Shown one piece after another: positions 8,237 to 59,783 of a stretch of DNA of 64,000 bases. The notes beneath the pieces are model-generated. The model had not been told where the DNA came from, searched no databases, and was given only the letters and a program-made list of their open reading frames with translations. Source of the DNA: Planctomycetes bacterium syqfu (GTDB taxonomy: Bacteria; Planctomycetota; Phycisphaerae; Phycisphaerales; Phycisphaeraceae); the NCBI GenBank assembly GCA_020974905.1, contig CP087563.1, positions 6,634,001 to 6,698,000 of the forward strand, written 5' to 3'. Each line of letters opens with the position of its first letter. Position 1 is the stretch's first letter. The position numbers and the translations under genes are program-made.

Positions 8237-8704
8237 ACTTAATTTTTGTATGACGCAGTCTTAACGTCAAGCAAATAATTTAATTTGGACATGCAAAAAA
8301 AGTGACTTGTATTTAGGAGTGTTTTGGCTGAATAGGTGAAAATTAAACGGATAACATAAGGATGCATTTACAGAGAGATTCGCTTTGGATGTTGGACATG
8401 CAAAAATCATTCTGTCCTTCCCGCGCAGGCGGGAATCCAGTGGCATTACGTAGACGCTTGCAGGTTCCACTGGACTCCCGCCTGCGCGGGAGTGACGGAT
8501 ACATGTCTGTCTATGCATGCGCGTGATTTTAACAACTCGAAAAATAGCTGCGACACCACGTGTCGCTAATGCCTTAACGTGATGGATAAATTAACAGCTT
8601 AAACTCCAAAGAAATTCTACAATGTGGCTTGATCACAGATGCAAACGTAAAATCTCAATTGTTATATTTGTAGCTACAATCCATCACCGTATTGGGGGTA
8701 ATTG
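8237..8704. other. 468-base intergenic region between divergent genes
   Basis: No credible gene. It contains the inverted-repeat element at 8411-8500 (separate entry), the small perfect hairpin GCGACAC-CAC-GTGTCGC at 8550-8566, and an AT-rich stretch (8567-8700) that should hold the promoter for the small membrane protein. The hairpin context ATAGCTGCGACA...GTGTCGCT recurs in diverged form at about 39428. Confidence 0.5.
8411..8500. repeat. Interspersed inverted repeat, copy 1 of 3
   Basis: The left arm CCCGCGCAGGCGGGAATCCAGTGG and the right arm CCACTGGACTCCCGCCTGCGCGGGAG are near-perfect inverted repeats around a 22-base spacer. Copies at 31690-31780 and 40935-41027 have the same arms and different spacers. 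The ATTCCC...GGGAAT core resembles the dRS3-type dispersed repeat described in Neisseria and seen in many genomes. No transposase is present. Confidence 0.85.
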
Positions 8705-26711: not shown

Positions 26712-27872
26712 TCACTTTAACCACTCAACCAGCATCGGCGCAATCAACTTCGAATACTGCATCCGTCCAGCACGATTGGTATGCGAGATATCCGAAAACT
26801 TGTCGTCTTCCAACGCATCCCGCATATCCACAATCTCCGGCGCAACATCCCCAAACGTCTGATCCAAATTCGTCTTCAAACGCTGCATCGCAACAGTCGG
26901 TACAGACTCCCGCAGTCGGCTATGTTCGGGCATCAACATGATCACCACCTTGGCACCGCGCTGCTGAGATTGCTTGATGATCGTATTGAGCGCATCATGC
27001 TCGGCAGTGATCCAATCGGGCTGATAGGACTCTACTTCAAACAACCCGCGGTTGGCATAGCTCTGGATTTGTGCGTTGTAAGTCGCTTCGCTTGCCTTCT
27101 CCGGGCCGTCAATGCGAATCATTTCACGCCAGGGGCTGGTGACTTCCTGGACGCCACTTTGCGATGTCGTGTTGAACACCTGTAACAGACCTGCGTTGAC
27201 CGATGCCAGATTTTCCGTGATTACGGTATTTACATCACGGCGGCGTTCGTAAACCCAAACACGCTCCCGTGTGTCGTGATACGCCTTACGGATATCACCT
27301 TTAACCAGCGGTGAAACGATCGGCAGGCCCGTCTCTTGAACTTCCTCAGTCTCCGGCTTTTTGTGTTGAGCAATGACCAGCGGATCGACCTGGTGATACA
27401 GGTTAATGCCGATGATCACGAGATCGGGTTTGAGTTCACTTTCAAGTAACGCGGCACCTTGTTGCTGCATCGTTGCCAAACTCGCGCCGGCACCACAGAG
27501 TCCAAGATACTTCGCATCAATGCCATCAAGCTCCGTCAGGGTGGCAAGGTCCACGGACTCGCGTTGGCTGGAAAGCCCTAAAAACACAGCCAATTTCTCG
27601 TTGGCTAATTCGGGATTGCTGGCAAACGCAGCCTCCGCAGCATTGACGCGCTGCGTGATATCCTTCTGAAACCCCGTGCCCGACATCTTGTGGGGCAGCC
27701 AGGTCGGCCAAAGGGTCGAACTGAGATTCAGCAGTACGTTGACAATCAAAGCTGCGATCACCAACCCAAAGAGTACACGTCCCACACCGGTGATGCGGTC
27801 ACAGGCGGTTTGAACCGGGGCAGTTTCCTTTTCAAGTTGTTCCGGTGCTTCCGGGGGGGGAGTTTCAGTCAT
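26712..27872 (-). CDS. DltD/AlgJ-like SGNH-fold membrane protein, final transferase of the acylation operon
   Basis: A 386-residue protein starting at ATG 27872, two bases after the microprotein stop. One TM helix near residues 30-50 (VLFGLVIAALIVNVLLNL) is followed by an extracytoplasmic SGNH-like domain: block I AVFLGLSSQRE (Ser101/102), block II-like YLGLCGAGASLA, GINLYHQ, and the terminal catalytic D-x-x-H in FSDISHTNRAG. The layout is that of DltD and AlgJ/AlgX proteins, which transfer an acyl group exported by an MBOAT partner to an envelope polymer. It is the last gene of the operon. The acceptor is unknown. Confidence 0.75.
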   Translation of the reverse strand: MTETPPPEAPEQLEKETAPVQTACDRITGVGRVLFGLVIAALIVNVLLNLSSTLWPTWLPHKMSGTGFQKDITQRVNAAEAAFASNPELANEKLAVFLGLSSQRESVDLATLTELDGIDAKYLGLCGAGASLATMQQQGAALLESELKPDLVIIGINLYHQVDPLVIAQHKKPETEEVQETGLPIVSPLVKGDIRKAYHDTRERVWVYERRRDVNTVITENLASVNAGLLQVFNTTSQSGVQEVTSPWREMIRIDGPEKASEATYNAQIQSYANRGLFEVESYQPDWITAEHDALNTIIKQSQQRGAKVVIMLMPEHSRLRESVPTVAMQRLKTNLDQTFGDVAPEIVDMRDALEDDKFSDISHTNRAGRMQYSKLIAPMLVEWLK

Positions 27873-27874
27873 GA

Positions 27875-28030
27875 TCAAAATGCCTGATAGAAAAACGGAT
27901 TGTCCTGCTGAGCCATGCAATAAGCGAGCATGAACATGAGGATCACCGTGATGAGTTTGAGGTAGTACAACCACGCAGGCATGTCCTGCACGGGATTAAG
28001 CCAGTTTTTAAGGGTTGATATGAGTTTCAT
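27875..28030 (-). CDS. DltX-like microprotein, 51 residues, C-terminal FFYQAF
   Basis: A 51-residue protein starting at ATG 28030, whose A is shared with the TGA stop of the MBOAT gene (TGATG), and ending two bases before the SGNH gene start. It has a basic N-terminus, one TM helix (about residues 21-39, LYYLKLITVILMFMLAYCM) and a short tail ending DNPFFYQAF. Gram-positive DltX proteins are likewise about 50 residues with one TM helix and a terminal F-x-Y-x-x-F-type motif whose Tyr carries the acyl group between MBOAT DltB and DltD. Size, topology, motif and position all agree, so Tyr48 is the proposed carrier. Confidence 0.7.
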   Translation of the reverse strand: MKLISTLKNWLNPVQDMPAWLYYLKLITVILMFMLAYCMAQQDNPFFYQAF

Positions 28031-29250
28031 CAGACTCCGCCTCCGCCGGTCATAAAGCTGATTAACCACCAGAACCCATCGAGCATCTGGTCGGTGTTAA
28101 AGAAGAAGGTCAGGTGACTGATGGCAACCCATTCAAACGTGATCGCCATGGCCACCGCTTTGATCCATGGGTTGGCCATGTATTTTTTGACACCCTTGGA
28201 TTTGAGTTTTTTCGACAGGCGTTTCTTGTACAGGTTGACGATGATCAAGCCCGATGCATGCATCACACCCCAGACGACAAAGTTCCACGCGATGCCATGC
28301 CAAAGTCCGCAGAGCAGGAATGAAACCATAAACGCAAACGAAGCACACCACATCGGCCAACGATTGCCGGTGACACGCAGCGCAGCGATTTGGGTCGGGT
28401 AAAACAGGTTCCGGCGAATCCACATCGACAGGGAAATATGCCAACGCTCCCAGAAGACGGTGATGTTGCGAGCCAGGTAAGGACGGTTAAAGTTCTCCGG
28501 CGTATGCACGCCAATGATCCGGCCGATCCCCACCGCAATGTCACTGTAAGCTGAGAAGTCAATGTAAAGCCAGATGAAAAACATCTGTGCTTCAAGCGCC
28601 CAATAGCCGTTGCCTGCGGTGAAGTCAGTGAGGAAAATTTTCTGAATCACAAATGCAAGGACGAACTTCTTAAACACACCAAAACCAAGACGCTCAAAGC
28701 CCCGCAGGACTTCACGCGGTTCCACGCGACGTGGTTCGTCGGGTTGGGTGATGAACTCTTCATAGGATTGAATCGGACCTGCTGCAAGCATGTGAAACGG
28801 CAAGCAGTAATTGATCACCTGAATCAGATTCGGGTAAGGCAGACGTTCTTCCCAGAGACTGCGGTACATGTCAATCAGTCGCAGACACACATACGAAAAC
28901 GCGATCACCGAGAGAATCGGCGCTGCGCCCTGGAGTTTGATTGCTTGGCCAATGCCATGGATTTTGTGCATCAAAAACAGGCCGATACACAATAACAAAG
29001 CAACAGTCACGAAGACGGGGCGGAGCTTTTTGTTCTTGATCGCAACGGTGAGTCCCCACGCGACCAGGCTGCCGGATAGCAGGACAGCACCACCTTGCCA
29101 ACCCAGCAGGGCGGTGAGAAAACCCATGTTTATCAGGGCAAAACGCAGGGACCGGAACTGCCCGTTGGCCATGGGAGCCAATAGCAGGATCGCAGCCATG
29201 AACGTCACCCAGAACTCGGGTTTGGCCAGATCAATGATGTAACTGCTCAT
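28030..29250 (-). CDS. MBOAT family O-acyltransferase (DltB/AlgI-like)
   Basis: A 406-residue polytopic inner-membrane protein with about 10-11 hydrophobic segments. It carries the MBOAT signatures: FNRPYLARNITVFWERWHIS with His271, and the active-site His318 in CGLWHGIAWNFVVWG. In DltB and AlgI, proteins of this type take an acyl group from a cytoplasmic carrier and pass it across the membrane. The gene overlaps the FkbH gene by 4 bases and the microprotein ATG by one base, so all three are translationally coupled. Confidence 0.92.
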   Translation of the reverse strand: MSSYIIDLAKPEFWVTFMAAILLLAPMANGQFRSLRFALINMGFLTALLGWQGGAVLLSGSLVAWGLTVAIKNKKLRPVFVTVALLLCIGLFLMHKIHGIGQAIKLQGAAPILSVIAFSYVCLRLIDMYRSLWEERLPYPNLIQVINYCLPFHMLAAGPIQSYEEFITQPDEPRRVEPREVLRGFERLGFGVFKKFVLAFVIQKIFLTDFTAGNGYWALEAQMFFIWLYIDFSAYSDIAVGIGRIIGVHTPENFNRPYLARNITVFWERWHISLSMWIRRNLFYPTQIAALRVTGNRWPMWCASFAFMVSFLLCGLWHGIAWNFVVWGVMHASGLIIVNLYKKRLSKKLKSKGVKKYMANPWIKAVAMAITFEWVAISHLTFFFNTDQMLDGFWWLISFMTGGGGV

Positions 29251-31157
29251 GCGTCAGCGTCCACCTTTGCCAAAAAAGTCTTACGTTCCTCAGCCTCGTG
29301 GACATTCAGTTCATACGTCACCGTGCCATCCTCTGCCGTGTTAATCGGCGTAAAGCCAAGTCGGTCGTAGAGGTCTTTGACCAGCACGTTCTTGGCGGTG
29401 GGGATGTAGGTCCCGATGACATAGTCCGCGTTGCGATTTTTGGCAGCATTGAGCAGCGTGTTGTAACAGAACTCTTCTACAGTCCGCCCAATCACGCGAC
29501 AGCTCATCAGCCATGTGTCGATTTCAAAGGCTTTGCCAGTGCTTCCGGGGGTACCCAAGGGATGATCCTTGAGGACTGCAAGCAGCACCGCAACCAGACC
29601 GTGATCACCAAACCGATCTGCCACGCGGAGGGTGATACCCATGTTGTTACTGTCAGCAAGCATCTGCTGGACAACCTGCGGGCTGTGACGACGGGTGGTG
29701 AGATTGAATTGATTGGTCTTGCCCAGCAGTTGGATGACGCGGGCAAAATCTTCTTCGTTGATCAGTCGCGCGTCAGCGGACATTTTTAATGATTCGAGAT
29801 AGTCATCCATCGACGTGAAACTGGATTGGACTTCACGACGCTGCGCTTCAGCGCGGTATTGCTCGACACGTTGGGCGTCGGCCTTGGTGACGTTCATCGA
29901 CTCAAACCACAAACCATGTTCCAAGGCGTGGACATACTCGCTGGCATCTTCGCCAACTTCCACGACCTCGACATCAGGCAGCATCTGGCGGACATGTTCG
30001 CGTTCCACCGGGTTGTCATCCAGAAACACAAAACTATCCAACCCCAAACGCAACGTTTGCGCGATGCGCTGGATGGCGACGGCCTTGGGATCCCACGAGG
30101 CTTCGAAGGCTGCAAAGTCTTCGAGCTTGAGGATCATGTCGGGATTTTTCTCAAACGGTTCACGGGCATCCGCGTCATTGTTCTTGGAACAGACTGCAAG
30201 CAGAATCCCCTTGTTTTGCAGGCTTTTTGCGTAACGTTGCAACGCACGATGTGCTTCGCCATCTGGGCTGTCACCGATACCAATACCCAATGGGCCGGTT
30301 TCACCGACCACGCCACCCCAGACGGTGTTGTCCAGGTCGAGGACGAGGACTTTCTTCGGGCCGTTGACCATGGTGCGGTAGGCCGCGAAGACATGTTCGG
30401 AGAGGCGAGCGGTGCCGACTTCAGAAAAGGGTTGCTTGGTCCAGTAGTAGCGACGGGCATCGTAGAAATTCTCTCGCCCGAGCATGCCGGAGATTTGATC
30501 AATGTCGACGAAGAAGCTCATCTCGGGCAGGTTCGCGCGGAGGGCTTCGTTGACCTGTCGAACGAGATTGATGTGACCGCCTGGTTGTCCGCCAAGGTGA
30601 TGTCCCTGGTAGCCGGGGGATTTGTAGTCGTAACCGATCTGGATGAGTCGGGTGTTGAGTTGGCCGGTGACGAAGTTCCAGGCTTGTTGCCAGAAGGTGA
30701 TTTCGTCATCAATGCGTTGCTTCGCATCGCGGTCACCTTCAGCAAGCAGACGCGTGTTCCAGGGCAGCAGCACCACGGCATCATATTTCACATCACCCGA
30801 TGCTGCAGCCATGAGTTCCTGCATGACATTGTCATACTGGCCTTCGGTCGCCATGACGGATATCCCGCCTGCGTAGGCAGAAGCGGTGAGGCAGTTACAC
30901 AGCCAATTGGTGGTGCATTGCCCGAGGACGAGGACGTTTTGCGTTTTGACTTGATGCGTTTTGAAATGCTTGATGATCTGGCGCCCGGCTTTTTCGATCC
31001 CCTCAGCAGAGAGCCAGTGTCGGCGCATGGCATTACGCAGCGTACTCAATGCTTCGTCATGTTTGTTTTCTTTACGGAGTTTTCGCGAATGGTTAAACAC
31101 CGTGATTTCGTCAAAACGTTCGGTGTCCTGATTTTGTTGTGCGTTTAAAGTCGTCAT
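29247..31157 (-). CDS. FkbH-like HAD-IIIC protein (acyl-ACP loading)
   Basis: A 636-residue protein. The N-terminal ~250 residues form an SGNH-like domain (VLVLGQCTTNWL near 76-86). The HAD core has motif I VLVLDLDNTVWGGVVGE with Asp274/Asp276, motif II LAVCSKNN and motif III FVFLDDNPVERE. The C-terminal ~170 residues resemble a GNAT domain (RFGDHGLVAVLLA, DTWLMSCRVIGRTVE). FkbH enzymes dephosphorylate 1,3-bisphosphoglycerate while loading a glyceryl group onto an acyl carrier protein. A carrier protein gene lies upstream and the MBOAT gene overlaps by 4 bases, so it probably supplies the acyl group here. Confidence 0.88.
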   Translation of the reverse strand: MTTLNAQQNQDTERFDEITVFNHSRKLRKENKHDEALSTLRNAMRRHWLSAEGIEKAGRQIIKHFKTHQVKTQNVLVLGQCTTNWLCNCLTASAYAGGISVMATEGQYDNVMQELMAAASGDVKYDAVVLLPWNTRLLAEGDRDAKQRIDDEITFWQQAWNFVTGQLNTRLIQIGYDYKSPGYQGHHLGGQPGGHINLVRQVNEALRANLPEMSFFVDIDQISGMLGRENFYDARRYYWTKQPFSEVGTARLSEHVFAAYRTMVNGPKKVLVLDLDNTVWGGVVGETGPLGIGIGDSPDGEAHRALQRYAKSLQNKGILLAVCSKNNDADAREPFEKNPDMILKLEDFAAFEASWDPKAVAIQRIAQTLRLGLDSFVFLDDNPVEREHVRQMLPDVEVVEVGEDASEYVHALEHGLWFESMNVTKADAQRVEQYRAEAQRREVQSSFTSMDDYLESLKMSADARLINEEDFARVIQLLGKTNQFNLTTRRHSPQVVQQMLADSNNMGITLRVADRFGDHGLVAVLLAVLKDHPLGTPGSTGKAFEIDTWLMSCRVIGRTVEEFCYNTLLNAAKNRNADYVIGTYIPTAKNVLVKDLYDRLGFTPINTAEDGTVTYELNVHEAEERKTFLAKVDADA

Positions 31158-31181
31158 GCGTTGTCTCGTTTTCCCATTACG

Positions 31182-31577
31182 TCATGCGGTTTTGTTCTGG
31201 ATGTACTCGACGGTAATGCCACGCGTGTAAATCGGTGGCAGGAAGTTGATGAGAATCGGGCCGGCATCGACCGCCTTTTGCTCAAGCAACTGCATGTCCA
31301 TGGCTTTGAGTTCGTCGGTGACCTGATCCAAGTCGTCGACCTGGATGGCAATGTGATGCAGACCGCCCATGCCTTTGTTGAACTTGGCAAGTTTGGGGCC
31401 CTTGGGCACGATGAATTCAATGACGCCCAGCGCACCTTCGGTGAAGATGCACAGTGCTTCGTATTCCTCGACGTACTGCGTCCGACCGAGTTTTAAACCG
31501 AACACCTGTGCGAGTTCAGGGACTCGTTCCTCTTCGTGCACAATGATACCGATGTGATGTAATTGACCTAAGAACAT
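31182..31577 (-). CDS. VOC family protein, methylmalonyl-CoA epimerase-like
   Basis: A 131-residue protein starting at ATG 31577 (the frame extends to 31640 with an implausible N-terminus). It has two VOC half-folds: LHHIGIIV with His8, IEFIVPKGPKLAKF, GGLHHIAIQVDDLDQV with His75, and GITVEYI with Glu124. The pattern matches methylmalonyl-CoA epimerase, where these residues bind the metal. It lies 24 bases upstream of the FkbH gene in the same operon. In this context it may act on the carrier-bound or CoA-bound acyl group, for instance to set the stereochemistry; that is inference. No methylmalonyl-CoA mutase is nearby. Confidence 0.8.
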   Translation of the reverse strand: MFLGQLHHIGIIVHEEERVPELAQVFGLKLGRTQYVEEYEALCIFTEGALGVIEFIVPKGPKLAKFNKGMGGLHHIAIQVDDLDQVTDELKAMDMQLLEQKAVDAGPILINFLPPIYTRGITVEYIQNKTA

Positions 31578-31689
31578 GCGTCTTTTCCCGTGTAATGCGT
31601 CTGTGAGATAACAGCGATTGCATTGCGCATGGCTACGCAACTGCTATTGCTTGGAGCCGATCAAAAAATGATCTCCATAGCCTCATCTT

Positions 31690-31780
31690 TTTCGTCATTC
31701 CCGCGCAGGCGGGAATCCAGTGGCATGCAGTTGTCGCTTGCACATTTCACTGGACTCCCGCTTACGCGGGAGTGTCGGAT
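31690..31780. repeat. Interspersed inverted repeat, copy 2 of 3, inside the acylation operon
   Basis: CGTCATTCCCGCGCAGGCGG at the left and CACTGGACTCCCGCTTACGCGGGAG at the right, around a ~30-base spacer. It sits in the 249-base gap between the acyl carrier protein gene and the VOC gene. It might attenuate or process the operon transcript, or be a recent insertion. See 8411-8500 for the family. Confidence 0.85.
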
Positions 31781-31826
31781 GGTGGAGCTATATTGTTTGA
31801 ACTGCTCTAGCTCTTCAAAGCATCCG

Positions 31827-32072
31827 TTAGCTGGCGACGGCGGTTTTTGAGTCGATCAAAGCGACGAGTTCGCCGATGTTTTTCAGACCAGCCACTTCGG
31901 AACTGGCAAAGCGAATGCCGAAGGCCTTTTCCAGGTTAAGCATCAGTGTGACGTGCATCAGTGAGTCCCATGCATCGACATCTTCAGCGGTCGTCTCGGG
32001 TTCGAGTTCGATTTCGTCATCATCGAACACATCACAAAAAACTTCGGTGACTTTGCTAAGCGTATCTGACAT
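31827..32072 (-). CDS. Acyl carrier protein
   Basis: An 81-residue acidic protein starting at ATG 32072, chosen because GAAGGAATTGAGAAG precedes it; the longer open frame to 32312 is not credible. The phosphopantetheine site is in DAWDSLMHVTLML, with Ser37 following Asp36. It is very acidic around residues 17-35, as usual for acyl or D-alanyl carrier proteins. It is the first gene of the putative acylation operon and the likely acceptor of the group loaded by the FkbH-like protein, in the role DltC has in teichoic acid alanylation. Confidence 0.88.
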   Translation of the reverse strand: MSDTLSKVTEVFCDVFDDDEIELEPETTAEDVDAWDSLMHVTLMLNLEKAFGIRFASSEVAGLKNIGELVALIDSKTAVAS

Positions 32073-34723: not shown

Positions 34724-35404
34724 TCAGTGCCCGCCGGATTCCCAGTAGTAGTCGGGATGGAAGTCGCGTGAAACGAGGTAGGAACGGCTGCTTCCTGCCC
34801 GTTGGGGTGCATTGCCACTGAGTGTTGCAATGTGCCCGTCGAGCATGGAGATGTTCAGGGCGTTGTTGTGTCGGAAGGCAAAGTCGTACCACGAACCACC
34901 GTTGTGCCAGTTGTTGGTCGGATAGCCGCCTTGGAAGTTATTGTTTTTTTGCAGGTCATCCCAGAAGAGAACGAGTTTGGATAAGGGCGCGGTGAGGTTG
35001 TCGATTTTGCTTTGTGTGAAGCCGGACTTGGGACGGATGCGTCCGTTGCCGTTGGATGAATGTCCGCCGTACTCTTTACCCCATGGACTGGTTGAATGGG
35101 GCACATACTCCGGGCAGGGGGGCGTTTTGATGGTGTAACCGGTGCGCTGGACTTTCTTCAGACCATAATCATAGAGATAGTTCCACCAACTTGAATGACT
35201 GGAGAGATAGCCATGGTAATCCTGGGTGTACATCAGGCTGGCGGTCATCAGGAAACGAATCTGCGTTTGACATTGGACATTGCGTGCAGCTTTGCGAGCG
35301 TTGCCCAAAGCAGGTAGCAGGATGGCAATAAGCAGTGAGATAATCGAGATGACGACAAGGAGCTCGATGAGCGTAAAGCCGTTGATGTTTCTGCGTGTGG
35401 ACAT
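34724..35404 (-). CDS. Prepilin-like protein, module 1
   Basis: A 226-residue protein starting at ATG 35404. It has the type IV prepilin N-terminus: short basic leader, [21 protein letters not shown] with the cleavage after Gly and Glu5, followed by the helix [13 protein letters not shown]. The soluble C-terminal domain ends near [13 protein letters not shown], the beta-rich motif (FxDGHV-type) of planctomycete DUF1559-like proteins. Such proteins are processed by a prepilin peptidase and may form pseudopilus-like or surface structures. It lies between a LacI regulator and a hydrolase gene on the same strand. Confidence 0.9.
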
Positions 35405-35467
35405 TTCAAACTCCATGTTCGTGGATGCGTCTTTTGGTTACCCCGGTCAAGGCAAACAATAAGTGAT

Positions 35468-35490
35468 GCAACAGGTACTGTTGATCAACC
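35468..35490. promoter_or_regulatory. Candidate operator upstream of prepilin-like gene 1
   Basis: CAACAG-GTA-CTGTTG (35469-35483) and the overlapping palindrome GTTGATCAAC lie 64-86 bases before the prepilin-like ATG, between it and the LacI regulator's 3' end. This is a plausible but weak operator candidate; no matching second copy was found. Confidence 0.35.
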
Positions 35491-35517
35491 ACGTCTTATT
35501 CAGTGTTTTCTTACAAT

Positions 35518-36603
35518 CTAACCCGACCCAACGACATGTTGCGTCGATACGGAATTTCCTTCCAAAATCTCCATCGGGATAAACACCCGGTGCGGCATGG
35601 GACTGATTTGTTTTTCCTGAATCATTTGGATCAGTCGCTCAGATCCTTTATGGCCGGTCTGGTAAGGGTGTGTCTTCAAGACCGTCGGCTTGATGTGATA
35701 CGACTCCACGTGATGGGCGCCAAAGGCAATAAAACTGTAATCCTCAGGGCATTTGAGATGATGCTTGGTGAGTACCAACTCCATGGCCAAAAAGGACTCG
35801 ACATAAGGCAAGATCACAGCGGGGGGACATTCACCGCTCAGAAGCCACTCCTCAAACGCACGGGCGACTTCCGTCATGTCCGTGTTCTTGGCACAGTGAC
35901 TGTGGAAGTGACCTTCACCCAGCGTGATGTCGGTCATGATCTTGGCACCGTGTTTGTTTTCCTGCCAGCTTTTGACCGACTGCGAACCCATCAGATAGCC
36001 GATCTCGGTAAAGCCACGATCCAGGAAATACTTGGCTGCCAACTGACCGCCCTGAATTGCATCACTGGTGACAATGTTGATCGGCAGGTCCATATGACAC
36101 GGACCCAGGAGCACCATGTTCTTGTTGATCTGATTGACCTTGGCGATCAAAGCTTCGGACGGGTTACCCATCATCAGAATCCCGTCAGCCTTGTAAAGCT
36201 GATCGAGAATGCGCTTGTTGATCGGATGTGAATCGGGCTCTCTGACGGACCATGTGCTGATGCGGTTGATTGCGATGTCCGTTGCAGCAAGATGGTTTTC
36301 GATCCCCTCAATCATGCGACTGAAGTGTGTCAATGCCATCATGTTCGCCTGCTCAGGCAAAGGGCAGAGCAAGGTCTCAATGTGAATCGTCTTTGCCTTT
36401 TTACGCGAAGCACGGGCCTGAGCTTTGCGTTCAATCGCCTGGGCGTCATAGCCAAGCTTTTGCACCACCGTGAACACACGCTTGGAAGTCCGCTCACTGA
36501 TCCGCGGGTGCTTGTTGAGCACGCGGGACACCGTGGACTGGGAAACACCCGCCCGTTTGGCGACGTCTGAAAGCGTGACATTGGTTGATGGTGACTGAGC
36601 CAT
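35518..36603 (-). CDS. LacI family transcriptional regulator, module 1
   Basis: A 361-residue repressor-type protein. The helix-turn-helix is VTLSDVAKRAGVSQSTVSRVLN at about residues 9-30 (hinge ISERTSKRVFTVVQKLGYDAQ), and the sugar-binding periplasmic-protein-like domain follows (NIVTSDAIQGGQLAAKYFLD, EDYSFIAFGAHHVESY). The ligand is unknown. It is upstream of a prepilin-like gene and a secreted hydrolase on the same strand and probably controls them. The minus-strand region before its ATG carries a repeated AATTGTGCA motif around 36661-36681. Confidence 0.93.
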   Translation of the reverse strand: MAQSPSTNVTLSDVAKRAGVSQSTVSRVLNKHPRISERTSKRVFTVVQKLGYDAQAIERKAQARASRKKAKTIHIETLLCPLPEQANMMALTHFSRMIEGIENHLAATDIAINRISTWSVREPDSHPINKRILDQLYKADGILMMGNPSEALIAKVNQINKNMVLLGPCHMDLPINIVTSDAIQGGQLAAKYFLDRGFTEIGYLMGSQSVKSWQENKHGAKIMTDITLGEGHFHSHCAKNTDMTEVARAFEEWLLSGECPPAVILPYVESFLAMELVLTKHHLKCPEDYSFIAFGAHHVESYHIKPTVLKTHPYQTGHKGSERLIQMIQEKQISPMPHRVFIPMEILEGNSVSTQHVVGSG

Positions 36604-40934: not shown

Positions 40935-41027
40935 TCGTCATTCCCGCGCAGGCGGGAATCCAGTGGCATTCTGTGCGCAGTTGCATATTCCACTGGACTC
41001 CAGACTTCCGGGGCGCGGGAGTGACGA
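40935..41027. repeat. Interspersed inverted repeat, copy 3 of 3
   Basis: CGTCATTCCCGCGCAGGCGG and CCACTGGACTCC...GCGCGGGAGTGACG. The right arm is slightly diverged (CAGACTTCCGGGGCGCGGGAG). See 8411-8500. Confidence 0.85.
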
Positions 41028-47444: not shown

Positions 47445-48449
47445 ATGGACACCATTGAGCAAATCGCAACTGAAGTCGGCGTCTCCGTCACCACCGTCCG
47501 GCGGGTTCTGCGGGGGGGAAACAAGGAGACTTGGCCCAGCGCGATGCGTCGGGCACGGATGATTCGCGAAGCGGCAGATCGGTTGGGGTACAAGGCCAAC
47601 TGGTGTGCGGCATCACTGGCCCGCAAGAGTACGCGGACGATCGCACTGGTGCATCACATGGTGGTCCCGGTTCCCACGGATCAGTGGCTGCACATCATGG
47701 AAGAAACCGTCGAAGTGTTGCACCAGGCGGGTTACGATCTGCAGTTTGTGGCAGGGGGTTCAGCCAGGGCACCGCAGATGCTCATGGAGCAGCGCTTTGA
47801 TGCATGTATCGTCGTGCATCGTCTTCTGCCGGAGATTAAGCGCGCGGTGGAGCAGGCGAATTTGCCGATGGTTCAGCTTAATTGTGCAGAATCGGCAAAG
47901 CATCCGAGCATTATCAATGACGATACAGCCAGTGCAAAAACTCTGACCGATCACCTGATCAAGCTCGGACACAGGCGCATTGCCTACTATCACCGGTCTC
48001 CGGAAAACCAGGGGCATATCAGTGTACAGACGCGTTTATCTGGCGTGACCAAGGCGATGGCGCAAGCCGGGCTGCCTGCTGCGCCGGTGACGTTTTACGA
48101 AGACGAGCAGGCTGCAATTGATCAGATCATGCAGATGGCTGAGCGTCCGACTGCGGTGGTGACGTATGACGATTACGACGCTTTGCCGTTGCAGCATGCC
48201 TGTTGGCAGCGTGGGATCAAGGTGCCTGATGATTTGAGCATTGCCACGTTCAATGACACACGACAGGCACGATATGCCACACCACCGTTGACGACGATGG
48301 ATGTCCCTGCTGCCGATGCCGCCCGTGCAGCGGTGAATGTGTTGTTGCAATGGTTAGGCGGTGATGCCGACATGCAGCAGTTGCCTCAGCAGTTACTCGC
48401 TGCCTCTTTGATTGTCCGTCAATCCACCGGGCCTGCCCCGGATTGTTGA
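47445..48449 (+). CDS. LacI family transcriptional regulator, module 2
   Basis: A 334-residue regulator with the N-terminal helix-turn-helix MDTIEQIATEVGVSVTTVRRVL at residues 1-22 and hinge AREAADRLGYKANW-like segment (IREAADRLGYKANW). The ligand domain follows (TIALVHHMVVPVPTDQW, SIINDDTASAKTLTDHLIKL, PTAVVTYDDYDALPLQ). The recognition helix (VTTVRRVLRG) has Arg where the common family has SRVLN, which fits its own operator sequence. It lies upstream of a prepilin-like gene, a GH10 enzyme and a cytoplasmic glycosidase gene, all on the plus strand. Confidence 0.93.
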   Translation: MDTIEQIATEVGVSVTTVRRVLRGGNKETWPSAMRRARMIREAADRLGYKANWCAASLARKSTRTIALVHHMVVPVPTDQWLHIMEETVEVLHQAGYDLQFVAGGSARAPQMLMEQRFDACIVVHRLLPEIKRAVEQANLPMVQLNCAESAKHPSIINDDTASAKTLTDHLIKLGHRRIAYYHRSPENQGHISVQTRLSGVTKAMAQAGLPAAPVTFYEDEQAAIDQIMQMAERPTAVVTYDDYDALPLQHACWQRGIKVPDDLSIATFNDTRQARYATPPLTTMDVPAADAARAAVNVLLQWLGGDADMQQLPQQLLAASLIVRQSTGPAPDC

Positions 48450-48513
48450 GTTTTTTACCCGTTTTGTTTGTATGAATAATGCCTGTTGAATCTCATGGGA
48501 AAGGCGCTTGAAC

Positions 48514-49320
48514 ATGCCTGACAAACACAAGGCGTTCACACTCATCGAGCTATTGGTTGTGATTTCGATCATCGCGTTGTTGATCTCAATTCTTCTGCCG
48601 GCGTTGCAATCGGCAAGGGAGTCCGCCAGGGCAGCATCGTGTCTGAGTAACCAAAAACAGCTTGCAATCTGCGTTGCCATTTATCAAACCGATCACGATT
48701 CGTTTATGCCGATTTCCATGTGGCAGGGGGATTGGGATCCGGTGTCCAACCCGTCTGCAACGCCCAGCTATGCCGTCTTTGCCCAAGGGGAAAACATCGG
48801 TTGGAAAATCCAGCTTTCCCAAGCCAATGGCAAACGTCTGACCAGTAACACGCAAATGAATCAGACCCTTGCCCATGGCATGTACCGTTGTCCCAGTACG
48901 CTGGTGAAATTCGATAACGATGTCAATGAAGCGTATTCCAAGGTTGAAAAACTCGAAGGGGGTTATGGTTGGAATAACACCTACATGGGCTGGTGGTATG
49001 TCAATCCCAATAACAACAACGTGGCCTACGGACGCTGGCCGATGCGACAGGATCTGATGACCCATCCTTCGGATAGCATTCTGATGGGCGATACGTTTGA
49101 AGACAGCTTTGACGGCAGCAGGTTCCCCACGATCAACACCGGCCAACGCAGTTACAACACCATCGCAGTCCCATCCAAAAAACCGTCCTATGTTTCCAGA
49201 CGTCATACCGACACCGGCAACTTCACGTTTGCTGACGGTCATTGTTCGCGCATCTCATGGGAAGAGAATGCGTACGGCAGAGATGGTGATCTGGACTATT
49301 ACTACCGCTATGACAAGTAA
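48514..49320 (+). CDS. Prepilin-like protein, module 2
   Basis: A 268-residue prepilin-like protein. I use ATG 48514 rather than the upstream TTG. The leader MPDKHK is followed by [21 protein letters not shown], in which the residue before FTLIE is Ala rather than Gly, so prepilin peptidase cleavage may be weaker. The C-terminal domain ends with [15 protein letters not shown], the DUF1559-like DGH motif. It begins 64 bases after the LacI stop and ends 39 bases before the GH10 gene. Confidence 0.88.
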
Positions 49321-57769: not shown

Positions 57770-57888
57770 CAGGTGTTGGGGCAATGCAGTTGATCCGAGA
57801 CTTGGATGGGGGTGGAGCTGAGTCGGATTCAACGCATTGGCATCATGATTTTGGACACGGGATTTTCAAGCAGCATCGGATCGTGACC

Positions 57889-59025
57889 ATGACCACACGC
57901 TTGGTTGACATCGCGGAAAAAGCCGGCGTCAGTGCCTCTGCCGTCAGTCGTGTGCTGCGCAATCCCGGCAAGAAAATCGACATCAGCCAGGATGCTCGTG
58001 ATCGCATTGTCCGCATTGCACGGGAACTCAACTACCGTCCACATGCTGGCGCTCGGTCAATGAAGAACAAGAAGTTCGATGCTGTGGGGGTGCTTGCCAA
58101 CCCGATCGGCGGATGTGATGGGGCGTTGATTCAGTTGCTCCCGTATCACCGTGCGCTGATTCAGCAACTGAGTAAACACCAACTCAACGTCATCATCATG
58201 AGTACCGGCGGGGACACGCTGCCCGAGCAGGACATCCCCTCGCAAATGACCGACCGACGCTTTGACGGTCTCGTGGTTACCGTCGATGTCAATGACAAAC
58301 TTGAGCAGGTCATCAACGGTTTGGACATCCCCATACTCTGGCTCAACAGTCAGAAACGGCGTGGCATGAACACCATCTGTCCCGACGACCGCATGCTCGG
58401 TTATCTCAATGCCCTGGCGTTGCTGGCCATTGGTCATCGCAAAATTGCCGTGTGCAATGCATCCCAATGTCAGTCCTTTGACCAGCATCGACTTGAAGGT
58501 TTTTGTCATGCACATAAGCAGTTCGGCATCACCCCCGACCCAACCGTCAAACAAAATGTCCAACGTCACGAACACACCCAGCAGTTCCAAACGCTCATGT
58601 CCCAACAGGACGATCCCTACACTGCCTACGTTGGCATGAACCCGATGATCTCAGAATGTCTGGGGGCATACATGCTCCGCCATCGCTGTTTCCCGGGACA
58701 GGATATGGCGCTTGTCAGCATGGACCGCGGGGAATGGGAACATCTCTACCCCTGCATCTCCGGCATGCAGGTTCCGGGGGTGACACTCGGCCATGTTGCA
58801 GCGGATCGCTTTGACAACATCATCAAAAAACGCAGGACCGGCAAGGCTCATTATGACATCGCTCCCCAATGGCACGGCGGTGAAACACTAACGCCCGGCA
58901 ATGACAGTCACGAAGCGCGTGTGCTCTGTGACGAATTGATGCAGCCTGATGCGGATATTCTCAAACTACTCAAACACTGGATCGACCCGAATTGGATCAC
59001 CCAGGATGCCACCCAATACCGTTGA
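57889..59025 (+). CDS. LacI family transcriptional regulator, module 3
   Basis: A 378-residue regulator taking ATG 57889, which gives the normal LacI N-terminus MTTRLVDIAEKAGVSASAVSRV with the helix-turn-helix at residues 5-24 and hinge IVRIARELNYRPHAGARSMK. The effector-binding domain follows (DAVGVLANPIGG, RFDGLVVTVDVNDK, QDMALVSMDRGEWEH). It is preceded by two identical operators and a strong promoter, so it is probably autoregulated. It is followed by a prepilin-like gene and a GH2-like hydrolase gene on the same strand. Confidence 0.93.
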   Translation: MTTRLVDIAEKAGVSASAVSRVLRNPGKKIDISQDARDRIVRIARELNYRPHAGARSMKNKKFDAVGVLANPIGGCDGALIQLLPYHRALIQQLSKHQLNVIIMSTGGDTLPEQDIPSQMTDRRFDGLVVTVDVNDKLEQVINGLDIPILWLNSQKRRGMNTICPDDRMLGYLNALALLAIGHRKIAVCNASQCQSFDQHRLEGFCHAHKQFGITPDPTVKQNVQRHEHTQQFQTLMSQQDDPYTAYVGMNPMISECLGAYMLRHRCFPGQDMALVSMDRGEWEHLYPCISGMQVPGVTLGHVAADRFDNIIKKRRTGKAHYDIAPQWHGGETLTPGNDSHEARVLCDELMQPDADILKLLKHWIDPNWITQDATQYR

Positions 59026-59048
59026 GCCCACCCGTACTGGAGGTCACC

Positions 59049-59783
59049 ATGCATAAGCATCAACCAACACATTTTTGCTGCAAATCAAGGGGATTTACGC
59101 TCATTGAGTTACTCGTCGTGATCTCCATCATCAGCCTGCTCATTGCCATTCTGCTTCCGGCATTGGCCTCGGCTCGGGCGACTTCGCAGCGCATCAAATG
59201 CGCGACCGGTGAACGTCAGATCGGCTTGGCCATCTTCATGTATGCTGACAGTTTTCGTGACTATGTTCCGCGTGTTGGTCGCGTTGGTACGACTTGGGAA
59301 CACACCAACATTTGGAGCAGCAATGTCAGTGACCCATGGTCGCGTGTCCTCATGGAATACGATTTTATCAAGGAGCCCGCAGCACGCACCGCAGGCACCT
59401 TCCCACGCACGCAGCATCCGTTTTACTGTCCATCGGATAACTCCGACTATGGTGGCGGGTCCAATGCCGGCAAGCGCAGCTACAGCATGAGTGAAGCCTA
59501 CGTCTGGAACGGTACGGTGACCACACCCAAACGGCGCAGTGATATCTTGTCACCAGCCAATGTTATGTTGACCGCTGAAGACTCGGGCATCTATCACTTT
59601 GCCCTGGGCGGTAGTGCTGTGGGTTACTACCACTTTAAATCACTGGACGGCACATCATCCGTCGGCATGAATTATCACCACCTGGGCGATACGGCCAACA
59701 TCCTCTTTGGTGACGGTCATGTGCAGGCTGCGGATCGAGAAGCGGCGGGTAACTTCATTTTCAAGAACGCAGATCTTCCTTAA
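59049..59783 (+). CDS. Prepilin-like protein, module 3
   Basis: A 244-residue prepilin-like protein starting at ATG 59049 with GGAGG 6 bases upstream; the open frame to 58992 overlaps the LacI gene and is not used. [22 protein letters not shown] follows a short basic leader (MHKHQPTHFCCKSR). Gly precedes Phe1 and Glu5 is present. The C-terminal part ends with ANILFGDGHVQAADREAAGN, the DUF1559-like DGHV motif. It begins 23 bases after the LacI gene and ends 32 bases before the hydrolase gene. Confidence 0.92.
   Translation: MHKHQPTHFCCKSRGFTLIELLVVISIISLLIAILLPALASARATSQRIKCATGERQIGLAIFMYADSFRDYVPRVGRVGTTWEHTNIWSSNVSDPWSRVLMEYDFIKEPAARTAGTFPRTQHPFYCPSDNSDYGGGSNAGKRSYSMSEAYVWNGTVTTPKRRSDILSPANVMLTAEDSGIYHFALGGSAVGYYHFKSLDGTSSVGMNYHHLGDTANILFGDGHVQAADREAAGNFIFKNADLP

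Follow-up and report, generated by a model that had tools for sequence, protein, structure and literature searches.

Gene Organization of the Operon

The window analyzed here is a 64,000-nt stretch of contig CP087563.1 of Planctomycetes bacterium syqfu, and coordinates given without a locus name are positions in it. Its minus strand carries an operon (26712-32072) whose genes suggest a Dlt-like system for moving an acyl group across the membrane, with an FkbH-type protein instead of DltA. All six open reading frames listed by the first-pass annotation of this DNA were found, and family scans matched its assignments for the first four. The first gene encodes an acyl carrier protein (ACP; 32072..31827, 81 aa) with a DSL phosphopantetheine site (PF00550, 1e-8) and is followed by a gene for a VOC protein (31577..31182, 131 aa; Glyoxalase_4, 1.4e-13). 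Next come the genes of the FkbH-type protein (31157..29247, 636 aa), which consists of a HAD domain and a C-terminal region and matches TIGR01686 with 289.7 bits (cut-off 146.65), and of an MBOAT protein (29250..28030, 406 aa) with an LWHG motif (PF03062, 2.3e-19). The last two genes encode a 51-aa microprotein with one transmembrane segment and no significant family (28030..27875) and a 386-aa SGNH-like protein (27872..26712), recognized by its fold and its conserved Ser, Asp and His residues.

The FkbH and MBOAT genes overlap by 4 nt, the MBOAT and microprotein genes overlap by 1 nt, and 2 nt separate the microprotein gene from the SGNH gene, just as had been claimed. Since the same genes recur, in varying order, in several phyla, the gene set is not a product of chance. 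The VOC and FkbH genes are 24 nt apart. The gap between the ACP and VOC genes measures 249 nt in the window, where it holds an inverted-repeat element, and 27 nt in an operon of the same genus (L033). The element lies at 31694-31790 and has no counterpart in the gap of L033; its 25-base arm matches the window at four sites (three mismatches at most) versus none in shuffled sequences, with copies at 8414-8438, 8472-8496 and 40937-40961.

A Proposed Export Module Resembling DltB, DltX and DltD

For comparison, each species was represented by one genome, and a scan of these genomes with two MBOAT sequence patterns yielded 60 MBOAT loci. A separate microprotein with a C-terminal FxYxxF motif follows the MBOAT in 29 of these loci; the other arrangement, with the motif fused onto the MBOAT, occurs in 23. 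The microprotein of the window ends in FFYQAF, i.e., with FxYxxF at its exact C-terminus. In PMC12148441, FXYXXF is described as an acyl-shuttle motif that is terminal in DltX, where its Tyr takes D-Ala from DltB and delivers it to a Ser of DltD, and that is fused to the MBOAT in PatA and other MBOAT proteins.

We aligned the microprotein with those of 26 of the 29 loci. In the resulting 27 rows, F46, Y48 and F51 are the sole invariant residues, and FxYxxF is present in every row, with one residue following it in L057. As a check on chance occurrence, all 11,246 stop-ended frames of these 60 loci were counted, and 58 of them, genuine cases included, end in F.Y..F. The MBOAT of the window ends in FMTGGGGV and thus has no fused FxYxxF of the kind seen in PatA-type proteins, and a motif-less MBOAT with a separate FxYxxF microprotein is the arrangement known from DltX. 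The Pfam DltX profile (PF12459) did not match the window microprotein and matched only 2 of the 27 rows, weakly (best E value 0.032). We therefore propose that the microprotein acts as a DltX-like acyl shuttle, with the acyl group carried on Tyr48, but do not classify it as DltX. A second MBOAT of the same genome, encoded elsewhere (L035, 2938-4656, minus strand), is of the fused type and ends in VQFIYFQF.

The only NCBIfam match of the MBOAT was DltB (TIGR04091, 1.1e-53). With 182.8 bits, it falls below the equivalog cut-off of 375, which makes the protein a relative of the DltB equivalog rather than a member. All 20 aligned MBOAT proteins matched TIGR04091 at 1e-3, and W317 and H318 are invariant among them. 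In a profile search of Protein Data Bank (PDB) sequences, DltB (6bug and 8jem) gave the only matches with E values of 0.01 or below. The same structures were the best Foldseek matches of the MBOAT model (pLDDT 84.7), with an E value of 1e-13 and TM scores of 0.75-0.77.

The SGNH protein, searched alone, had no Pfam or NCBIfam match at E values up to 1. S101, D361 and H364 are invariant in 18 aligned rows. Three proteins (L063, L064 and L066) were dropped from an earlier alignment of 19 rows because they were divergent and misaligned at S101; Pfam identifies them as GDSL/SGNH proteins (E values of 9e-7 or lower), only L064 above the cut-off. The AlphaFold2 model of the window protein (pLDDT 78.3) has an N-terminal helix at residues 23-53. 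All 12 Foldseek matches below 1e-3 are DltD chains (E values of 2.1e-6 to 1.9e-4, TM scores of 0.36-0.40), and VIA-align gave DltD a Z score of 11.8 over alignments longer than any others (232-240 residues). This modeling gives good support to an SGNH fold.

Linkage of FkbH and ACP to the Separate Microprotein

FkbH is encoded within the locus in 20 of the 29 loci with a separate microprotein and ACP likewise in 20, whereas among the 23 fused loci FkbH was found in none and ACP in one. A Fisher test on the FkbH counts gives 8e-8, a value that is descriptive only, since the loci are related by ancestry and were collected with the two MBOAT patterns. Neither arrangement was seen in eight loci, i.e., L059, whose contig ends inside the MBOAT gene, L070, L072, whose microprotein has the near-motif IVLYQAF, and five loci without FkbH. 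Gene order varies from ACP-methyltransferase-FkbH-MBOAT-microprotein-SGNH (L040 and L056, for example) to methyltransferase-FkbH-ACP-MBOAT-microprotein-SGNH (L063 and L066), ACP-MBOAT-SGNH-FkbH-microprotein (L125) and MBOAT-microprotein-SGNH-VOC-ACP-FkbH, with a weakly matching methyltransferase before VOC (L057).

In a maximum-likelihood tree of 67 MBOAT proteins, 35 rows of the separate kind (25 with FkbH and 10 without) lie together beyond a branch with 100/99 support, apart from the DltB-like rows L088 and L089 and from the fused type. Named members of this side come from Planctomycetota, Armatimonadota, Acidobacteriota, Myxococcota, Nitrospinota, Thermodesulfobacteriota and Pseudomonadota. 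The 35 rows include L059, which is truncated ahead of its microprotein. L069, L070, L072 and L120 are placed just outside, and five rows in all, including L120 and L121, are long-branched and of unsure placement. The tree label FkbHsep was also given to L059, L070, L072 and L120, in which a separate microprotein with the strict motif was not seen. At L120 (5625-8085, minus strand), a short MBOAT lies by FkbH and ACP, and a nearby 57-residue frame ends in ALVAYQRF, a looser form of the motif.

Close homologues of the MBOAT (E values of 1e-40 or below) are rare in the phylum sample, where 3 of 392 genomes, including its own, have one. Among 61 genomes (its own and 60 relatives), the system is present in its own, in two of three others of the genus and in one further genome of the family. 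Homologues at the same threshold, with queries counted, were found in 4 of 282 genomes from the phylum of L056, 6 of 77 from that of L063 and 2 of 249 from the family of L062. Two planctomycete loci, L046 (1-5244) and L050 (952-7322), contain tandem MBOAT-microprotein(-SGNH) units, those of L050 beside one FkbH; in such loci one donor may serve several transferases.

The nine separate-microprotein loci without a local FkbH come from seven genomes, four of which encode a near full-length FkbH elsewhere (E values of 3.4e-209 or lower); in G433, only a distant partial match was found (3.3e-54). At L041, L046, L049 and L052, the contig ends about 2 kb or less upstream of the matched MBOAT. In a Sphingopyxis locus (L062, 5084-8283) and one from the sphingomonad family (L108, 5357-9056), the order is ACP-GNAT-MBOAT-microprotein-SGNH, with a short MBOAT; GNAT was identified by Pfam in both and the other parts of L108 by similarity. 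Since GNAT occupies the place of FkbH in these two operons, the loader appears to be exchangeable, and the carrier-dependent export core is probably fed by other loaders as well. Two more loci contain AMP-binding ligases. L121 (7585-10748), from the phylum of L056, encodes such a ligase (PF00501), an ACP-like protein recognized by eye and a short MBOAT, and no FxYxxF microprotein was found there by the scan. At L086 (4143-7281), a fused-FxYxxF MBOAT adjoins ACP and an AMP-binding ligase (PF00501, 3e-40), which makes this locus, by its gene content, a carrier-fed system of the fused type.

Proposed Loading of the Carrier and Proposed Pathway

Proteins of the FkbH family transfer glyceryl from 1,3-bisphosphoglycerate to a carrier protein. 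The window FkbH exceeds the curated cut-off of its family (TIGR01686, 2.6e-86) and also matches FkbH_N (PF21211, 1.6e-7). It was aligned with proteins from 21 loci, fragments in L047 and L064 being excluded. In the 22 rows, the HAD motif DxDxT (D274, D276 and T278) is conserved, and D274, D276, S324, D380, D381 and C553 are conserved in at least 95% of rows. Cys81, considered as an N-terminal nucleophile, was rejected, being Cys in 11 of 22 rows, as is Cys323, compared with at least 95% for C553. The site Asp and Ser of the ACP are kept in all 27 aligned ACP rows. By analogy with its family, FkbH is proposed to charge the ACP with glyceryl drawn from 1,3-bisphosphoglycerate.

The genome as a whole agrees with this assignment. 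There is no DltA in the operon, and no protein of this one genome exceeds the DltA cut-off (TIGR01734; best score 287.8 bits versus 559.85). The operon FkbH is the sole FkbH match in the genome, and a close second ACP is absent, the next best match having an E value of 2e-4. Two long frames, of 1538 and 1542 aa, match the adenylation-ligase profile.

We consider it likely that the operon encodes a Dlt-like system for acylation across the membrane, served by another loader, in which the acyl group would travel from FkbH to ACP, MBOAT, microprotein and SGNH protein. In the first step, FkbH would take phosphoglyceryl from 1,3-bisphosphoglycerate and strip its phosphate, leaving glyceryl on the ACP arm. 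In the second, VOC may reverse the configuration at C2 of the glyceryl on the ACP in the window's genus; in many relatives a methyltransferase would act instead, or also, to give O-methylglyceryl-ACP. The DltB-like MBOAT would then move the acyl group from the cytoplasmic ACP to the Tyr of the microprotein FxYxxF outside, by the mechanism described for DltX and PatA. Finally, the Ser of the DltD-like SGNH protein would accept the group and esterify an acceptor in the envelope, with a surface glycan as the likeliest candidate. For the last two steps the architectural evidence is strong; the first two draw on family assignment and gene linkage. The idea of a Dlt-like module with an FkbH-loaded carrier, put forward by the first-pass annotation, is supported by the shuttle motif, by the DltB- and DltD-like predicted folds and by the presence of FkbH in 20 of 29 loci versus 0 of 23.

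Several observations weigh against this pathway. Nine of the 29 separate-microprotein operons lack a local FkbH, and in two of the seven genomes concerned (G434 and G435) the genome searches found no FkbH at all. With the two GNAT operons added to these cases, the acyl group of the family is not fixed. L070 encodes FkbH, ACP and a short MBOAT, and no FxYxxF was found in it. The same-genus genome G002 (78% complete) has distant MBOAT proteins only, and no glycan polymer genes adjoin the window operon. None of the 18 SGNH members matched the DltD profile, and other, smaller SGNH proteins reach a VIA-align Z score of 14.3 versus 11.8 for DltD. Because of these higher scores and the low Foldseek TM scores, a special kinship of the SGNH protein to DltD is only likely, while its fold is well supported. 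The expectation that homologous operons would have both ACP and FkbH held in part, with FkbH present in 20 of 29, and because of the nine others our claim is limited to the FkbH-bearing majority.

Putative Tailoring Genes and the Nature of the Acyl Group

The VOC protein matches methylmalonyl-CoA epimerase (TIGR03081, 5.8e-13) with 49.5 bits, below the equivalog cut-off of 114.95, and is a relative of this enzyme rather than an equivalog member. Epimerases of the PDB were also matched (1jc4, 8e-7; 3rmu, 4e-6). Four positions, H, E, H and E, were seen by eye to be common to five VOC rows from related operons; these we take to be the metal ligands. C2 epimerization of the ACP-bound glyceryl would be the simplest role for the protein. 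VOC is also encoded near ACP or MBOAT in L053, L047, L057 and L070. A class I methyltransferase is encoded beside FkbH in 12 of 23 FkbH loci, as judged by strong profile matches, and 4 more loci contain weaker matches. Nine of the 12 strong methyltransferase matches had served as seeds of the profile, and all VOC matches are profile seeds or same-genus copies of the window VOC; both counts are descriptive only. The window's genus has VOC in place of the methyltransferase, and a search for a methyltransferase elsewhere in its genome gave a weak match at best (3.6e-6).

The machine may be the one proposed and yet export a group edited beyond glyceryl, e.g., of lactyl, hydroxymalonyl or pyruvyl type. 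The VOC gene of the window and the methyltransferase genes just described do suggest editing of the ACP-bound group, and glyceryl-ACP is a proposed intermediate on the way to hydroxy- and methoxymalonyl-ACP in polyketide pathways (PMC7489565). However, no dehydrogenase was found among the six operon genes or five scanned neighbours, and relatives of methylmalonyl-CoA epimerase would most simply epimerize. We regard such further editing as fairly unlikely.

Acceptor and Other Explanations

Downstream of the operon lies a convergent gene for an MMPL-family protein; upstream are genes for a 765-aa protein, a pseudopilin-like protein, a LacI regulator and a 188-aa protein, the first and last of which have no family. 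A LacI-like regulator is paired with an N-terminal-methylation (pseudopilin-like) protein at three places in the window, 34724-36603 (by Pfam) and, by eye, 47445-49320 and 57784-59783. Related operons lie near glycan genes encoding GT2/GT9 glycosyltransferases (L063), O-antigen ligase-family Wzy_C (L056 and L108) and Poly_export (L108), and L062 adjoins genes for a sugar aminotransferase and a UDP-sugar dehydrogenase. These loci are given as examples, with no count, since they were chosen for their glycan-like look. A surface polysaccharide is our leading guess for the acceptor.

MBOAT proteins elsewhere act on lipid and protein substrates, and the acceptor could accordingly be of lipid, protein or small-molecule nature. 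The PDB matches of the MBOAT model include HHAT, PORCN and LPCAT3, one MBOAT has been proposed to acylate the suomilide sugar, and the window operon itself stands apart from any glycan locus. Yet in the system where a free microprotein is already known, the substrate is a wall polymer (PMC12148441), and several relatives adjoin polysaccharide genes. An acceptor other than a glycan seems to us unlikely.

FkbH and ACP could also belong to a specialized-metabolite pathway and merely lie beside an MBOAT/SGNH pair that uses acetyl-CoA. FkbH with a stand-alone ACP is best known in polyketide and peptide clusters, and the two adenylation-ligase frames of the genome might be read in this way. But FkbH tracks the separate-microprotein MBOAT proteins from phylum to phylum, in 20 of 29 loci versus 0 of 23 of the fused type, and no polyketide or peptide synthase was recognized in the operon or five scanned neighbours, which makes this explanation very improbable. 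Ordinary D-alanylation, with DltA encoded elsewhere and FkbH unrelated to it, is hardly credible: the MBOAT and SGNH proteins are indeed most like DltB and DltD and adenylation-type matches exist in the genome, but DltA in trans was rejected for want of any match above the family cut-off there, the DltX profile does not match the window microprotein, FkbH is present in 20 of 29 related loci, and planctomycetes are not known to have teichoic acids.

The proposed pathway from FkbH to the SGNH protein can be generalized to a class of envelope acylation systems spread over several phyla. In this class, 1,3-bisphosphoglycerate would both power the reaction and supply the acyl group, which FkbH would load without a ligase; with its chirality set by VOC, or with methylation, the group would be exported by DltB-, DltX- and DltD-like proteins onto surface glycans, and the loader (FkbH, GNAT or adenylation ligase) could be swapped on a shared carrier-dependent core. 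This wider claim might just as well fail as hold. If it is true, envelope acylation gains a glycolysis-fed, ligase-free chemistry, planctomycetes, myxobacteria and Nitrospinota with the operon are predicted to bear surface esters of glycerate or methylglycerate, and it becomes possible to test how the carrier/microprotein branch of MBOAT proteins evolved.

Comparison with Known Systems

With the Gram-positive Dlt system (DltX-A-B-C-D), the window operon shares a stand-alone carrier, a DltB-like MBOAT, a separate FxYxxF microprotein with one transmembrane segment and an SGNH protein that is probably DltD-like. It differs in having FkbH, not DltA, and in the addition of VOC or a methyltransferase. 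Its microprotein gene adjoins the MBOAT gene, whereas dltX is mostly upstream of dltA (PMC5541007). The microprotein falls outside the Pfam DltX profile, the MBOAT proteins form a separate branch, and the phyla are other than Firmicutes. PatA/PatB and the fused-motif systems have in common with the operon an MBOAT, an SGNH protein and an FxYxxF acyl-Tyr shuttle; those systems carry the motif on the MBOAT itself and use an acyl-CoA donor, with no carrier (PMC12148441), whereas the window encodes a free microprotein and an ACP.

FkbH with a carrier is shared with the tetronate and methoxymalonate polyketides and with suomilide/varlaxin, as is, in many relatives, the methyltransferase. For suomilide and varlaxin, the published proposal is that glycerate is attached to the carrier by an FkbH domain and then methylated by a methyltransferase domain. 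The operon differs from these polyketide and peptide systems in that no synthase was recognized in it, the predicted user of the acyl-ACP being the MBOAT. The two dehydrogenases of the methoxymalonyl-ACP operon were not found in the window operon or five scanned neighbours. In Campylobacter jejuni, the di-O-methylglyceroyl modification of pseudaminic acid may be linked to HAD-IIIC and ACP genes of its locus. As proposed for the operon, the di-O-methylglyceroyl pseudaminic acid of C. jejuni flagellin has a glyceryl-type acyl group on a surface glycan (PMC3068675). There, the group is joined to the sugar as an amide, is also found on the CMP-activated form and depends on Cj1295, and the part of that paper's text available contains no mention of Cj1302, an acyl carrier or a phosphatase.

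No published description of the combination of FkbH, MBOAT and microprotein was found in the open-licence literature searched, where FkbH and MBOAT occurred together only in aeruginosin/suomilide-type peptides and the papers found on SGNH proteins, DltB, DltX or microproteins brought in no FkbH. What is new here is the DltX-type motif, the linkage of ACP and FkbH across phyla, the methyltransferase in many relatives, the DltB- and DltD-like predicted folds and the apparently exchangeable loader. Outside Dlt, pathways with MBOAT and SGNH proteins are said to have neither a carrier protein nor a microprotein like DltX (PMC12148441, 2025); in the clade described here, which extends over several phyla, both seem to be present, together with another loader.

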